Shown here piece after piece: positions 32,090 through 62,812 of a stretch of DNA of 64,000 bases (position 1 is the first letter of the stretch; each line of letters begins with the position of its first letter). Both the position numbers and the translations under genes were made by a program. The notes beneath the pieces are model-generated. The model was not told the DNA's origin and ran no database searches. It worked only from the letters and a program-made list of their open reading frames with translations. Source of the stretch: Lysinibacillus sp. ZYM-1 (GTDB lineage: Bacteria > Bacillota > Bacilli > Bacillales_A > Planococcaceae); NCBI RefSeq assembly GCF_001308875.1, contig NZ_KQ465125.1, forward strand, positions 1-64,000. The letters run 5' to 3'.

Positions 32090-32425
32090 TTAATCTTTGG
32101 TTATCGTTACCCAGTCAGAAGACCATTGTTCAATTGCCTTTAGCACTGGTGCAAGTGCATATCCCTTTTCCGTAAGCTCATACTCAATGACGACTGGTGT
32201 AGTAGGAATGACAGTGCGTAGCAAAATTTCCTCGGTCTCTAGCTCCTTTAATCGCTCGGTTAATACGCGGCTGCTTATATTTAACTGTTTTTTAATAGTT
32301 GAATACCGCTGAGGACCATCTAATAACTGATAAATAAGCAAAGTATTCCAACGATGATTTAAAATTTTTAGTGCCTTTTCAAATCGAGGACAAATTTTTT
32401 TTTGATCCACGGTACATGCCTCCAT
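32090..32425 (-). CDS. HxlR-type (DUF24) redox/electrophile repressor
   Basis: 111 residues, a complete winged helix of the HxlR (DUF24) class: LNHRWNTLLIYQLLDGPQRYSTI then ISSRVLTERLKELE. Two N-terminal cysteines (Cys4 and Cys12) occupy the place of the sensing Cys of YodB, CatR and HypR, which respond to quinones, diamide or hypochlorite. It is divergent from a DoxX gene over a 139-bp control region with direct repeats, the same arrangement as catR/catD-like systems. Likely represses doxX and itself (inference). Confidence 0.85.
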   Translation of the reverse strand: MEACTVDQKKICPRFEKALKILNHRWNTLLIYQLLDGPQRYSTIKKQLNISSRVLTERLKELETEEILLRTVIPTTPVVIEYELTEKGYALAPVLKAIEQWSSDWVTITKD

Positions 32426-32477
32426 TGTTAGTAGTTCATATACAACAGTATATCACTTTTTTATTCACTCAGTTCTT

Positions 32478-32530
32478 AAAATACATTTAGTTACTTGACA
32501 AAAGTCGTTTTTAAAAATACACTAGGTTAC
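32478..32530 (+). promoter_or_regulatory. doxX promoter with two direct-repeat operators
   Basis: TTGACA (32495-32500), 17-bp spacer, TACACT (32518-32523). A 17-base direct repeat, AAAATACA-n4-GTTAC, lies at 32478-32494 just upstream of the -35 and at 32514-32530 over the -10 (14 of 17 identical). Binding there would block transcription. Confidence 0.6.
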
Positions 32531-32564
32531 GAATTGTAAGTTAAAGAAAAGGAGCTACTTTATA

Positions 32565-32957
32565 ATGCAAAACATTGGTTCAACTATTTTACGTGTCGTT
32601 CTCGGCATTATTTTTGCTGTGCATGGTTTTCAAAAGTTTCAAGGAGGAATCAGCTACACTGCAGACTTTTTTGATAGTTTAGGTATACCAGGATTTATGG
32701 CGTATATCGTTGCGATTATTGAATTAGTTGGAGGAATTGCCCTTATTTTAGGCTTAGCAACAAGAATTTTCGGCGCATTACTAACAATTACTATGATTGT
32801 TGCCATTTTCACAGCTAAGCTTAGCATTGGCTTTATTGGAGCTGATGGACTAGCTGGTTACGAATTAGATTTAGCTTTGGGTGCAATTGCCCTATACTTC
32901 ACTCTAGCTGGTGCTTCTAGCTTTTCATTAGACGCCCAACTTTTTGGGAAAGAGTAA
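32565..32957 (+). CDS. DoxX-family membrane protein (CatD/MhqP-like)
   Basis: 130 residues, four spans, with the DoxX pattern RVVLGIIFAVHGFQKF at the N terminus and IELVGGIALILGL in span 2. In B. subtilis, CatD and MhqP of this family are induced by catechol and quinones and accompany ring-cleavage dioxygenases. Here no dioxygenase is adjacent. AAAGGAG stands upstream of the ATG and a terminator follows at once. The divergent HxlR repressor is its probable regulator. Confidence 0.85.
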   Translation: MQNIGSTILRVVLGIIFAVHGFQKFQGGISYTADFFDSLGIPGFMAYIVAIIELVGGIALILGLATRIFGALLTITMIVAIFTAKLSIGFIGADGLAGYELDLALGAIALYFTLAGASSFSLDAQLFGKE

Positions 32958-36524: not shown

Positions 36525-36560
36525 AAAAAAGTTGTCTCAAATTAATGAGACAACTTTTTT
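36525..36560 (-). terminator. Terminator of mhqR
   Basis: A perfect 15-bp stem (36525-36539 with 36546-36560) with A/T ends, overlapping the mhqR stop codon. Confidence 0.85.
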
Positions 36561-37005
36561 AATAAGATAAATCCTTAATAGAAAGTCCTATTTTCTTTAA
36601 TAACGTAATAGCTTGCTCTTTTTCTTCTGAAGAAAGTACGCTCATTATTTCATGCAAATGCTGCTCGTGTTTTGGGAATAGTTCCGCCATAAATGCTTCA
36701 CCTTCATCAGTAATTTCAGCATAAGTCACACGACGATCTGAAGGACAAGATACACGTAATAAATAGCCTCTTTTTTCAAGCTTATCAATGACATACGTAA
36801 TAGACCCACTGGCAAGTAAAATTTTATTGCCGATTTGCTGTAAAGGTTGTCTTCCTTTATGATAAAGAAGCTCTAGAACAGCAAATTCAGTTGGGTTTAA
36901 ACCATTATCCTGAATTAATTGATGTGTTGTCTCATTGATAGCTTTAAGTGCACGTGACAATACAATATATAATTTTAAAGATTGTTTTAGGTCTTCTGAC
37001 GTCAT
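36559..37005 (-). CDS. mhqR: MhqR-like MarR repressor
   Basis: 148 residues, MarR fold. NPTEFAVLELLYHKG, QQIGNKILLASGSITYVIDKLEKRG and SDRRVTYAEIT follow B. subtilis MhqR (YkvE) as I remember it. MhqR represses azoreductase and dioxygenase genes and releases them on exposure to quinones; its box is an inverted repeat of the TATCTCGA type. A perfect copy of that box is found at 61796-61813 before yceI. Promoter TTGACA-18-TATAAT lies upstream. Adjacent to a sporulation-type kinase, as mhqR is to kinD in B. subtilis. Confidence 0.8.
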   Translation of the reverse strand: MTSEDLKQSLKLYIVLSRALKAINETTHQLIQDNGLNPTEFAVLELLYHKGRQPLQQIGNKILLASGSITYVIDKLEKRGYLLRVSCPSDRRVTYAEITDEGEAFMAELFPKHEQHLHEIMSVLSSEEKEQAITLLKKIGLSIKDLSY

Positions 37006-58176: not shown

Positions 58177-58752
58177 TTAAAATATGTATCGTATCATTTC
58201 ATGTATGTTACAGTAAGGGTTGTCACGGCTCTCCGTATTACGAAGAGCCATCATATCTGTACAATTTTTAATAGCTACCTCATGTCGTAATGCAATGGGG
58301 GCAATAATGGTCTCATCAGCCTTATGACGGAAATAACGACTCACGCCAAGGTGTTGTTCCATTTTGTCATTTAAAACCGCACGCGGATATTTTTCTGAAC
58401 TATCCACTTCTTCAAAATGCAGAAGTAACCATAATTCGAAAGCTTCATTTGTATAGGCAATATGGATACCTTGTTCCTCACAAAATTGATTTACTTCCTC
58501 CAATTGCTTTTCTGTTAAATCATCCTTATCAAAAACAATCCAAACCTCATCAAAATATTGATAACTGGAATCCCGATAAGCATGTTGGGCAAGCTTGATG
58601 GCGGAACGTTTTACGTTTTTTATTTTAACGCTTACCATTTTAGAGCGTTTCAAAATACGCATCTGCTCAAAATAAATACGTTCCGTTTCACCTTCACAGT
58701 AAATTAAAATGGTTTTCCGCAGTGTTCGGTTCCCTTGTTGACGTACTCTCAC
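58177..58752 (-). CDS. RloB-like TOPRIM-type putative nuclease
   Basis: 191 residues with the RloB family pattern: CEGETE at 19-24 (acidic first site), FDKDD at 74-78 (TOPRIM-like DxD), and NEAFELWLLLHFE at 102-114. It is expected to be a metal-dependent nuclease. The GTG start overlaps the stop of the ATPase gene (GTGA), so the two are coupled. RloA/RloB-like ATPase-TOPRIM pairs are associated with abortive infection and restriction loci; PARIS and AbiL are comparable. The conserved acidic residues are all present, so it looks intact. Confidence 0.85.
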   Translation of the reverse strand: MRVRQQGNRTLRKTILIYCEGETERIYFEQMRILKRSKMVSVKIKNVKRSAIKLAQHAYRDSSYQYFDEVWIVFDKDDLTEKQLEEVNQFCEEQGIHIAYTNEAFELWLLLHFEEVDSSEKYPRAVLNDKMEQHLGVSRYFRHKADETIIAPIALRHEVAIKNCTDMMALRNTESRDNPYCNIHEMIRYIF

Positions 58753-60029
58753 TGCTCAGATACCTCCGCTTCTTCTAAATATTGTCCAGATAAATATTCA
58801 TTAATGACAGGCGTTGCGCCAAATTCACCTTTTAAATAACGTTTAGCATAAGAAAGGTCACCACGTTTTTTCTGTAAGTCTGCAAAATCAAATAAAGAAT
58901 AGAGCTCAGATTCATTTTTAAAGGTTTTATTGACAAACCAAATTTGATCGGAACGCAATGGCTGATCCAATAATTCTATTTCATGACTCGTCACGACAAA
59001 TTGATTACTTGTATTGCGCTTACTGTTCATGATTGCCATCAAAAATTCGCAAATTGACACATGAAAAGCTGTATCGAATTCATCAATAAAAATAGTTTTT
59101 CCTTTATTGTGGGCATCTACCATCACACAGGCTAAATGTAACATGCGTACAGTACCTTTAGAATCCATCGTCCAATTTATCGTCTCTGTTCCCAATGGTG
59201 CGCCCGTTTCATCGAATGATATATAATGTAGATCAATATCAACCTCTTGAATAACTTCAGGTGTGTCAAACTCGTAGCCAATGGTATTTTTTTCTCTGCG
59301 TTCAACACGTCTAGCCGTGACATCCTGAATCGAAAAGTCTGCAATTTTAAGAAGCTTGATGACCTCCTTTTTAAAAGGCTCTTCTTCAAGTTTACGAATA
59401 AGAGGATGACTTGATAACCGATTCGCTTCATCTAGAAACAGCATTTTATGTAAAAACCAATCGAATACCCTTAAAGCATCTGAGTCATTAAAAACATGTA
59501 AGACAGACAAAAAGGCTGTATTGTTTCGTGTGTATTTTGTTAATTCCCGTGCTGTCGAATAAGCTGTTTCATACGAATAATCAGCACCATCCCATTGTCT
59601 GACAAAAAGCTCTTCTTTCAAATTATTGGTTGTCTTTTGAAGACGCTCATACAGAATTAAAGAAGCATTATACTGTATTTCATAATCATACAAAATTCCA
59701 TCCAAAAATAGCGAAATCATAAACTCTGTTGGTTTGCCCTGTTGACTTCCTAACTTAAACGGCTGATATGGCAAACGTAATTGTTTAACGTTGTTTATAT
59801 TTTCAAAGTTAAAAAGCAAGGAACGTAAAACTTTAATTGCGGTAAAAAGGTTGGATTTTCCACTTCCATTGGGTCCAAAAATAAATGCACTTTTCACTAA
59901 TCGAAGTGAATCATCTAACCGCATCGTATGGGTATCCTTCCACTTCCGCAGACGACTTCCTGCTACCATTGAAAATAACGTATCTTCTTTATAACTTAAA
60001 CAATTTTTCACTCTAAAATCTACAAGCAT
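58749..60029 (-). CDS. RloA-like AAA/ABC ATPase
   Basis: About 426 residues. FxVKNCLSYKE at the start is the usual SMC/OLD-like strand, Walker A GPNGSGKS is at 52-59, Walker B FIDEFDTAF near 325, and the switch His in VVTSHE near 358. It is an ABC-type ATPase of the AAA15/RloA group, lacking a TOPRIM domain of its own, which the partner RloB supplies. GGAGG precedes ATG 60029. The pair lies between katE and a sugar epimerase with no mobile-element genes visible. Probably an anti-phage module (inference). Confidence 0.8.
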   Translation of the reverse strand: MLVDFRVKNCLSYKEDTLFSMVAGSRLRKWKDTHTMRLDDSLRLVKSAFIFGPNGSGKSNLFTAIKVLRSLLFNFENINNVKQLRLPYQPFKLGSQQGKPTEFMISLFLDGILYDYEIQYNASLILYERLQKTTNNLKEELFVRQWDGADYSYETAYSTARELTKYTRNNTAFLSVLHVFNDSDALRVFDWFLHKMLFLDEANRLSSHPLIRKLEEEPFKKEVIKLLKIADFSIQDVTARRVERREKNTIGYEFDTPEVIQEVDIDLHYISFDETGAPLGTETINWTMDSKGTVRMLHLACVMVDAHNKGKTIFIDEFDTAFHVSICEFLMAIMNSKRNTSNQFVVTSHEIELLDQPLRSDQIWFVNKTFKNESELYSLFDFADLQKKRGDLSYAKRYLKGEFGATPVINEYLSGQYLEEAEVSEQ

Positions 60030-60089
60030 ATGTAAGCCTCCGTCCACATCCTCTTTAATGAATTATTATACTATAGAGATAGAAAAAGA

Positions 60090-61240: not shown

Positions 61241-61768
61241 TTAAGCTGGGTTGATTTCTAATTCAACAGATACTTTAATATCTTTACCAACAAGAACTCC
61301 ACCAGTTTCTAATGCTGCATTCCAAGTTAAACCAAAATCTTCACGATTGATAGTTGTTTCAGCTTCAAAACCATATACTTCTTGGCCCCATGGATTTGTA
61401 CCTTTGCCGTTAAATTCTGTATCAAATGTTACTGATTTTGTTACACCTTTAATTGTTAAGTCACCAGTTACTGTATATTCATCGCTAGATTTTTTTGCAA
61501 TGTTTGTTGATTTAAACGTAATTGTTGGATATTGTTCAGCATCAAAGAAGTCTGCCGCTTTTAAATGATTATCGCGATCTTCACTACGTGTATTAATGCT
61601 AGCTGGATCAATTGTAAAGCTGATGTTAGCAGTTGTTAAATCTGCAAGATCTTCCGCCTCAATATCCGCTGAGTAGTTATCAAATACACCTTTAACTTTT
61701 GATACCATCATGTGTTTTACTTGAAAGTTAACTGCTGAGTGTCCTAAATCAATGTTCCATTTTGCCAT
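61241..61768 (-). CDS. yceI: YceI-like lipocalin-fold protein
   Basis: 175 residues without signal peptide, so cytoplasmic, unlike E. coli YceI. The family pattern is clear: WNIDLGHSAVNFQVKHMM at the start, RDNHLKAADFFDAEQYPTI in the middle and GDLTIKGVTKSVTFD. Family structures form a barrel that binds an isoprenoid chain or quinone. ATG 61768 follows GGAGG with nine bases between. Its control region holds an MhqR-type box and a long dyad over the promoter, which suggests induction by quinones or other electrophiles. Confidence 0.88.
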   Translation of the reverse strand: MAKWNIDLGHSAVNFQVKHMMVSKVKGVFDNYSADIEAEDLADLTTANISFTIDPASINTRSEDRDNHLKAADFFDAEQYPTITFKSTNIAKKSSDEYTVTGDLTIKGVTKSVTFDTEFNGKGTNPWGQEVYGFEAETTINREDFGLTWNAALETGGVLVGKDIKVSVELEINPA

Positions 61769-61795
61769 TTTAAAATTCCTCCAATTAGTTGATTT

Positions 61796-61813
61796 TATCT
61801 CGATTTCGAGATA
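61796..61813. promoter_or_regulatory. Perfect MhqR-type operator
   Basis: TATCTCGA-TT-TCGAGATA is a perfect inverted repeat, 28 bases before the yceI ATG. It agrees with the MhqR box of B. subtilis (tATCTcgaAtTCgAGATa) as I remember it. The MhqR-like protein is encoded at 36559-37005. Confidence 0.7.
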
Positions 61814-61921
61814 TATTTTAAAATATGAAGCAACTACATTAATTATGTTACCCAAGATTAAGTAGGATAAACATTTGTAGTTACTTAATTTTTTGCACTA
61901 CTTTAGTTATAAAAAGTATTC

Positions 61922-61974
61922 AATTACTTTCTGTAACTTACTATACAATGATAATTAAGTTACGTCAAGTAATT
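61922..61974 (-). promoter_or_regulatory. yceI promoter within a 53-bp symmetric dyad
   Basis: Minus strand TTGACG (61968-61963), 17-bp spacer and TATAGT (61945-61940). The same stretch is symmetric: AATTACTT-n4-TAACTTA-n15-TAAGTTA-n4-AAGTAATT, all 15 arm pairs perfect, with equal spacing. This looks like two dimer sites of a repressor. Confidence 0.65.
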
Positions 61975-61999
61975 AAAATAGATTTTTTAAAAATAAAAA

Positions 62000-62024
62000 G
62001 GATGCCCGAGTTTTCAGTACATCC
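62000..62024 (-). terminator. Terminator of srtB
   Basis: GGATG/CATCC stem with a large loop, followed on the minus strand by TTTTTATTTTT. Confidence 0.55.
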
Positions 62025-62038
62025 CTGTCTTCTTCCCC

Positions 62039-62812
62039 TCAACGTCTTACTAATTTACCCTGCACAACAAAACGATGATCGTCACTCATGACTGAATCCT
62101 TACAAGTCGATAATGTCAGGATTTTATCGTCAGGACTAACCGCAACGTCCATTTGAATGGAGGAGCGTTTCTGAATTTCATCAATAAATTGTTGGTAAGC
62201 TTCAATGCTTGTAAAGTCTGTTTCAATATAGTAGAAATCAATAGTTGTCTCGTATGCAGCAAATACCTCGATATCATACCCTTCATATAAAGTATCTAAA
62301 TATATAATTGGATGGTCATCTGCGAAGTCTTGCTTTAAATAATTTTTTAAACTACCAAACATCGTATTGTTCTTCATAGCATGACCATATAAAATTGTGT
62401 TTTGATTCATATTAAGAATATTATTTCGATAATCCATAAAAACACTGCCTGCACGACTTTCCTGATCTCTAAAATTATGGTTTAAATAAAAATCATTATT
62501 GTCCGCTTGCAGTATAGGGTTATTTAACTTTGTTCCATCCACTGAGATCCACCCAATCATTTGACGATTGACTGCTAATAAATCATGAAATTGAGGTCTA
62601 ATCGTTGAAGTTGAAGGTGTTTGAGTTTCTTCCATTTGATCTACTGATTGCGCTTCAATAGTGGCTAATGTAGCTTGATAAATGTCTTGCACTTCCTTCA
62701 ACGATTTTGATGTCTCATAATACGTATATAGATACCTTGCTAGGGAAAATGCAGAAAATAAAAATACTACTAAATATAGTAATGTTACTAACTTTGATGC
62801 CTTCTTTTTCAT
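62039..62812 (-). CDS. srtB: Class B sortase
   Basis: 257 residues. One N-terminal membrane anchor (about 8-27), then the sortase barrel with catalytic His144 (YGHAMKN), Cys237 (LSTCKD) and Arg247 (DHRFVV). The class B type is supported by its size, long N-terminal helices and context. SrtB anchors heme-uptake proteins carrying NPQTN-like signals. It lies 12 bases after a ferric/heme ABC ATPase, the usual isd arrangement; the substrate surface protein is beyond the window edge. Confidence 0.88.
   Translation of the reverse strand: MKKKASKLVTLLYLVVFLFSAFSLARYLYTYYETSKSLKEVQDIYQATLATIEAQSVDQMEETQTPSTSTIRPQFHDLLAVNRQMIGWISVDGTKLNNPILQADNNDFYLNHNFRDQESRAGSVFMDYRNNILNMNQNTILYGHAMKNNTMFGSLKNYLKQDFADDHPIIYLDTLYEGYDIEVFAAYETTIDFYYIETDFTSIEAYQQFIDEIQKRSSIQMDVAVSPDDKILTLSTCKDSVMSDDHRFVVQGKLVRR

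Follow-up and report, generated by a model that had tools for sequence, protein, structure and literature searches.

Putative MhqR-type and HxlR-type operators upstream of yceI in Lysinibacillus sp. ZYM-1 and related Bacillales

Results

The yceI locus

The window, which is the whole 64,000-nucleotide stretch of Lysinibacillus sp. ZYM-1 DNA that was analysed, carries yceI and, upstream of it, an MhqR-type box, a leader dyad, a promoter (P1) and two candidate HxlR operators (Table 1). The start codon of yceI was set by alignment with a second yceI in the genome (yceI2, at C2:44949; 50% identical to the yceI of the window) and by a ribosome-binding site, GGAGG, at 61778-61782. The deduced protein matches PF04264 with 181.9 bits against a gathering cut-off of 23.7, and its best solved relative is 1WUB (TT1927b). 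Its score against the NCBIfam equivalog PRK03757 is 137, which is under the cut-off of 232. YceI begins with MAKWNIDLGH and is presumably cytoplasmic, because a hydrophobic leader is absent by eye. The closest named relatives of the gene (loci L016-L031) are from Lysinibacillus and share 82-96% protein identity with it.

In Lysinibacillus sphaericus 2362 (loci L017 and L035; also G016), two copies of yceI with the same score are placed towards the two ends of the chromosome record, which perhaps reflects terminal redundancy of the assembly. Elsewhere in the window, at 58177-60047 on the minus strand, a gene for an RloB-like protein (PF13707) adjoins one for an AAA ATPase (PF13304); the pair resembles the RloA/RloB type and is a possible defence module.

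Table 1. Features of the window discussed in the text, and genes at close matches to the box elsewhere in the genome
Feature	Position	Strand	Remarks
yceI	61241..61768	minus	175 aa; YceI/lipocalin-like polyisoprenoid-binding family; ATG at 61768-61766
Predicted MhqR-type operator (box; box site L002, yceI)	61796..61813	none	27 nt upstream of the yceI ATG, 13 nt upstream of GGAGG
Leader dyad	61828..61886	minus	arms 61877-61886 and 61828-61837, AAGTAACTAC and GTAGTTGCTT; RNA hairpin or DNA element
Candidate sigma-B-type promoter P2	61848..61872	minus	GTTTAT-13-GGGTAA, in the leader
Candidate HxlR (YodB/CatR-type) operator 2	61924..61936		TTACTTTCTGTAA (TTACAGAAAGTAA on the minus strand); where transcription is expected to start
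Promoter P1	61940..61968	minus	TTGACG 61968-61963, 17 nt, TATAGT 61945-61940; kept in the leader alignment
Candidate HxlR (YodB/CatR-type) operator 1	61960..61972		TTACTTGACGTAA on the minus strand; over the -35
Second YodB/CatR-type HxlR gene	32090..32425	minus	Cys12 aligns with Cys7; also Cys4; divergent from the DoxX gene
MhqR-clade MarR paralogue, second-choice regulator	36559..37005	minus	PDB match, genus survey, residue alignment
Box site L001			esterase gene (PF02230), mhqD-like
Box sites L003 and L008 (two boxes)			mhqR, then a glyoxalase/dioxygenase-superfamily gene, then a nitroreductase gene
Box site L004			flavodoxin-fold reductase gene, azoreductase-like
Box site L005			FMN reductase gene, then a dioxygenase-like gene
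Box site L006			MarR gene, then a dioxygenase-like gene
Box site L009			glyoxalase/dioxygenase-superfamily gene

The MhqR-type box in the genome

The box, TATCTCGATTTCGAGATA, had been described beforehand as a perfect inverted repeat of MhqR type. The type and the perfect 8-bp arms hold; the arms flank a TT centre, giving TATCTCGA-n2-TCGAGATA (8-n2-8) and not a full 9-9 palindrome. On the minus strand, 17 of its 18 positions are identical to the printed S. aureus MhqR operator, TATCTCGAA-aTCGAaATA, which extends from -6 to +12 of the mhqRED start (PMC6798810). It is the sole match with fewer than three mismatches in the window, where two matches with up to three mismatches were found against 0.15 expected from shuffles.

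Across the 4.86-Mb genome the box has three exact, three one-mismatch and three two-mismatch matches. With up to three mismatches allowed, the total is 25 against 19 for a reversed-pattern control, so that weight rests on the close matches only. These lie at genes of the kind listed in Table 1, except for L007, the ninth close match, which falls within a recombinase-like reading frame and is probably due to chance. The exact and one-mismatch matches are those at yceI, at the esterase gene, between mhqR and its glyoxalase/dioxygenase-superfamily neighbour, at the flavodoxin-fold and FMN reductase genes and at the MarR gene. The mhqA, mhqD and azoR labels for genes at box sites are our own reading and not the outcome of a family test; the Pfam names come from domain matches. 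At L001, L005 and L009 the box comes, by eye, directly after a -10 hexamer whose -35 is 17-18 nt away.

The yceI box is placed differently. P1 is the best promoter-like site in 61700-62100, with the most matches (10/12), in a stretch where three promoter-like sites were found against 2.1 expected by chance. As P1 lies inside the dyad described below, transcription would start near 61933 and the box would occupy about +121 to +138, unlike the S. aureus mhqRED operator, which covers the start site, and the boxes that follow a -10 at L001, L005 and L009. Directly before the box, the nearest fit to a sigma-A promoter is TAAAAT with TTAAAA at 18 nt (9/12), and no better -35 was seen there.

Conservation of the box upstream of yceI

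A search of relatives for the box had been proposed together with the preliminary description, and it bore the box out. From a sample of 80 yceI loci from named genomes, the 44 from Bacillales were used and the 36 from other groups were dropped. The box occurs with up to two mismatches within 450 bp before yceI in 28 of the 44. Two control sets gave no match at this threshold: 476 segments of equal size from other parts of these loci, and 171 stretches of 300 bp upstream of other reading frames with 150 codons or more. In both, the best match had three mismatches. In the remaining 16 Bacillales loci the box is absent at this threshold. Twenty-two of the 28 positive loci belong to Lysinibacillus, Metasolibacillus or Bacillus ndiopicus and are not independent, because they are close kin with largely alignable leaders (21 are in the alignment; the one left outside, L035, is the second copy of L017). 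The other six, from Lysinibacillus odysseyi, Planomicrobium (two), Sporosarcina (two) and Domibacillus, carry the box at different distances from yceI. By eye, the box of one Sporosarcina locus (L042) and that of Domibacillus (L051) overlap the yceI -35 element. Sporosarcina aquimarina (L055) has yceI and an MhqR-clade gene in divergent orientation, with a box at either end. The product of this MhqR-clade gene is 56% identical to the MhqR encoded at C21:37311 in the present genome and 48% identical to S. aureus MhqR. When yceI loci were fetched for the genus, 29 of 30 (32 genus genomes without G005 and G017) had the box by pattern, and the exception, G025, has one core base changed. No box was seen by eye at S. 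epidermidis yceI.

Rhodococcus, other actinobacteria and Listeria have more distant MarR genes close to yceI. The one beside yceI in Listeria falls outside the MhqR clade (22% identity); in L216, a Listeria record filed as a plasmid, such a MarR gene and yceI are divergent. In two Rhodococcus loci (L087 and L088), TACCTCGATTTCGAGTGA lies about 70 nt before yceI and forms a CTCGA-n2-TCGAG dyad that is box-like at three mismatches, with a distant MarR gene near both; a convergent or ancient link between MarR and yceI is possible there.

It is highly improbable that the box works chiefly as an RNA hairpin before the ribosome-binding site, acting on mRNA stability or translation, with the likeness to MhqR sites incidental or secondary. 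The box does fall within the leader that a P1 transcript would have, all 22 leaders that were folded form a stem of 5-9 bp there, and a terminator-like stem was called at it on the plus strand. What is kept, however, is the sequence itself and not pairing alone, as the pairs barely vary over 34 leaders, and the same sequence stands directly after the -10 elements of other quinone genes and over the yceI -35 in other genera. The reading of 61796-61813 as an MhqR-type operator is supported by these comparisons.

Candidate MhqR proteins

Two MhqR-clade MarR proteins are encoded in the genome, one at C21:37311 and one at 36559 in the window. The best PDB match of both is S. aureus MhqR (9QDR; 116.8 bits for the C21 protein and 110.2 for the 36559 protein, with the next match at about 50). 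Aligned to S. aureus MhqR, the C21 protein keeps the quinone-pocket residues F11, F39, E43 and H111 as well as S64-S66, and is changed at S68, Q73, K89 and Y92. In S. aureus MhqR, S65 and S66 are essential for DNA binding (PMC12893000). One box stands at the promoter of the C21 gene itself and a second ahead of the gene that follows.

The preliminary description had named the 36559 protein as the repressor of yceI, which is probably wrong. This protein has tyrosine in place of the quinone-pocket Phe11 and glycine at the position of the essential Ser65, and a search of the window with up to three mismatches gave no box at its own gene. By these comparisons, the C21:37311 protein is most likely the better candidate for the yceI box. 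Binding of the box by the 36559 paralogue in its stead is unlikely, although the two proteins are 55% identical (74% across the DNA-reading part, residues 54-92) and a gene of the 36559 type was found in all 32 genus genomes, own included, against 31 of 32 for the C21 type. The exception, G031 (L182/L049 type), keeps the yceI box and has the 36559-type paralogue, with no C21-type MhqR found. There are 17 MarR-like and seven HxlR places in the genome, so another family member could bind.

The dyad over promoter P1

The 53-bp dyad at 61922-61974, AATTACTT-n4-TAACTTA-n15-TAAGTTA-n4-AAGTAATT, is present as first described and spans both hexamers of P1 (TTGACG-17-TATAGT). Its exact inner arms, GTAACTTA-n15-TAAGTTAC, occur nowhere else in the genome, and the sole copy with one mismatch is situated between yceI2 and an HxlR gene. 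A relaxed pattern with three mismatches gave 32 sites in the genome against 86 in the control, and is uninformative past sites with zero or one mismatch.

We consider that the dyad is better read as two operators than as one, these being TTAC-n5-GTAA units 36 bp apart (operators 1 and 2). In the leader alignment, ACTTGACGTAA over the -35 and TTAC-n5-GTAA just past the -10 are best kept, and the inner arms drift. The perfect inner arms of the window might suggest one operator, bound by a large or looping dimeric repressor, but this is very unlikely: the inner arm differs among relatives (GTAATTAG, GTAAGTAA and others), whereas the TTAC-n5-GTAA units and their 36-bp spacing are mostly kept. Single exact units are also found upstream of HxlR in L208, L211 and L212, and the DoxX and catE-like genes described below have them too.

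With up to one mismatch over both units, the 36-bp operator pair was found in 24 of the 44 Bacillales loci (15 exact, nine with one mismatch; 18 of the 24 from Lysinibacillus) and in none of the 476 control segments or 171 gene upstreams, where the best match had three mismatches. At the same threshold the pair is absent from the other 20 loci; in L030 the first operator is degraded. A genome-wide search for ATTACTTNNNGTAACTTA with two mismatches gave 17 forward and 17 reverse matches against 15 and 21 in the control. As there is no excess, only the sites at yceI, HxlR, DoxX and the catE-like gene are argued for, and these by position.

An HxlR regulator linked to yceI

The HxlR gene at C2:44291-44593, which is divergent from yceI2, encodes a protein of 101 aa that matches PF01638 with 110.3 bits and has YodB (5HS7, 100.7 bits) as its best PDB match. 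It is under every NCBIfam cut-off, the best being RrpB with 72 bits against 175. Cys7 is its only cysteine, so that reaction by alkylation or by a Cys7-Cys7' link may apply; the C-terminal cysteines of the YodB type (Cys101 and Cys108) are absent. YodB and CatR sense quinones via Cys6 and Cys7 (PMC6798810).

All 32 genus genomes, the present one among them, have an orthologue of this gene, and in each of the 18 with yceI2 the two genes are divergent and within 1.2 kb. Among 21 genus genomes examined (own plus 20), the 36-bp pair lies upstream of the HxlR gene with up to one mismatch in 17, and at least one exact operator unit in 20, three of which have a single unit; in G017 the region before the HxlR gene lacks an operator. 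A scan of the 80 yceI loci for HxlR relatives found eight with an HxlR gene beside yceI, two from Chloroflexi and six from Bacillales (Gracilibacillus, two; Saliterribacillus, one; Allobacillus, three). In all six Bacillales loci yceI is divergent from HxlR and has the operator pair with up to one mismatch. Operator pair and gene linkage together indicate a YodB/CatR-type HxlR protein as the second repressor input at yceI. The second dimeric repressor that had been proposed from the dyad is thereby given a candidate, at two operators in place of the one envisaged.

The second YodB/CatR-type HxlR gene, at 32090 in the window, is divergent from a DoxX gene (32565-32957, PF07681) whose promoter contains TTACTTGACAAAA and TTACGAATTGTAA at a spacing of 36 bp. 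The stretch 32090-32957 looks like a CatR-catD-like unit, and its HxlR protein could act across on yceI. At L146 (C11:119124), near 1501-1521, the start site of a catE-like gene of the glyoxalase/dioxygenase superfamily carries TTACATAAAGTAA, preceded at 36 bp by a TACTTGAC unit. By eye, the catE-like and DoxX promoters are laid out like that of yceI with a weaker first unit, and the catE-like gene is likely to belong to the same regulon.

The leader between P1 and the box

The block from AAGTAACTAC to GTAGTTRCTTCATATTTTA is nearly invariant among the genus leaders seen. Its dyad folds as a hairpin in most leaders; the arms are almost invariant in the genus and the alifold covariance term is 0.28, so the hairpin has no support by compensatory change. 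Diverged leaders of the Metasolibacillus type have a different fold and align poorly. An Rfam search of 61700-62060 gave no match at gathering score and two at chance level (best E 2.1).

The conserved block could be a sigma-B promoter (P2), which would make yceI a general-stress gene as well; we regard this as a real possibility that falls somewhat short of being probable. Sigma-B-like hexamers, GTTTA-N-n13/14-GGG, stand at a near-constant place with up to two mismatches in 26 of 34 distinct leaders against 44 of 1128 control segments, the site has one mismatch in the diverged Metasolibacillus-type leaders (L032-L034), and sigB is present in the genome. On the other side, the idea arose from the same sequences on which it was scored. 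With the sigma-B consensus used for the scoring no promoter was found before rsbV, so this consensus is not calibrated here. Eight of the 34 leaders have three or four mismatches; the site is lost in L021, L049 and L180, and the hexamers also lie within the dyad.

Discussion

It is very probable that yceI is a quinone or electrophile stress gene with two separate repressor inputs, one of HxlR type and one of MhqR type. Sites, conservation, regulon context, regulator-gene linkage and residues were computed, and from them we infer binding, induction, a roadblock and the role of YceI. The HxlR protein encoded on C2, with its Cys7, would bind the two TTAC-n5-GTAA operators that straddle P1 and block RNA polymerase; promoter occlusion is proposed because of the operator positions. 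MhqR, most likely the C21:37311 protein, would bind TATCTCGA-n2-TCGAGATA between P1 and the ribosome-binding site and act as a roadblock to transcripts from P1 and from the possible P2. A roadblock is the simplest action for MhqR because the box is too far downstream of P1 for occlusion, and the likeliest because no fitting sigma-A -35 was seen directly before the box; an unusual near promoter at the box is a possible alternative. Quinones would release MhqR by binding in its pocket and HxlR by reacting at Cys7, and the YceI thus made would bind or buffer quinones.

Several relatives of YceI hold isoprenoids or ubiquinone-8 (PMC9113575), and Ralstonia yceI is induced by, and protective against, the phenolic compound methyl gallate (PMC8472277), in keeping with a function in quinone or phenol handling. 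More tentatively, and with rather less than even confidence, it is hypothesized that YceI of Bacillales is a cytoplasmic quinone handler, a carrier or buffer for menaquinone or foreign quinones, kept under a two-key lock in which the MhqR roadblock and the thiol-sensing HxlR protein must both release, with a sigma-B promoter lying between the two sites as a third input. Within this wider proposal the link between YceI and quinone sensing would have been made more than once, since different genera kept one or the other regulator beside yceI.

Control of yceI by both known classes of quinone sensor, across several genera, would give it a definite role in quinone stress, and the conserved predicted sites suggest that the widespread YceI proteins help against toxic quinones. 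The analysis also identifies a likely regulator for the operator pair and suggests how a single promoter region can combine an MhqR input with one of YodB/CatR type.

Comparison with known systems

To our knowledge, the role of YceI in Gram-positive bacteria is unclear. In the open-access literature we found no paper that links either MhqR or HxlR with YceI, none on the CosR pairing mentioned below, and, by titles and the beginnings of abstracts, nothing on MarR control of YceI or on quinone repressors or catechol together with YceI. B. subtilis, a model for MhqR, has no YceI match (control set of 14 genomes), which may explain this gap. The pairing of a MarR repressor with a YceI-type gene is alike in Corynebacterium glutamicum, where the MarR regulator CosR, which acts in oxidative stress, has a divergent polyisoprenoid-binding-type gene; CosR is not known as a member of the MhqR clade.

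The YceI lipocalins TT1927b, E. coli YceI and BcnA are of the same family by sequence. BcnA is described as secreted or periplasmic (PMC9113575), whereas the present YceI, from a Gram-positive bacterium, appears to be cytoplasmic.

With the YodB/CatR/QsrR regulators (HxlR, MarR/DUF24) the system shares an N-terminal Cys7, as in CatR (PMC6798810), and paired promoter operators; in B. subtilis, a YodB box is described alongside two CatR boxes at the promoter of catDE (PMC6212828). It differs in that the target is yceI and the regulator has one cysteine; the likeness to the YodB and CatR operators is judged by layout.

For the MhqR regulon of B. subtilis and S. aureus, the available text of two reports names azoR2, mhqNOP, mhqED, mhqA and mhqRED as operator-bearing units (PMC6798810, PMC12893000). 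The present case differs in that yceI is not among the units named there, and in that its box lies in the leader and not at the start site. It agrees in the operator itself, in the pocket and DNA-contacting residues kept in the repressor, and in a similar company of genes: mhqR and genes for dioxygenase-superfamily proteins, an esterase, flavin reductases and a nitroreductase.
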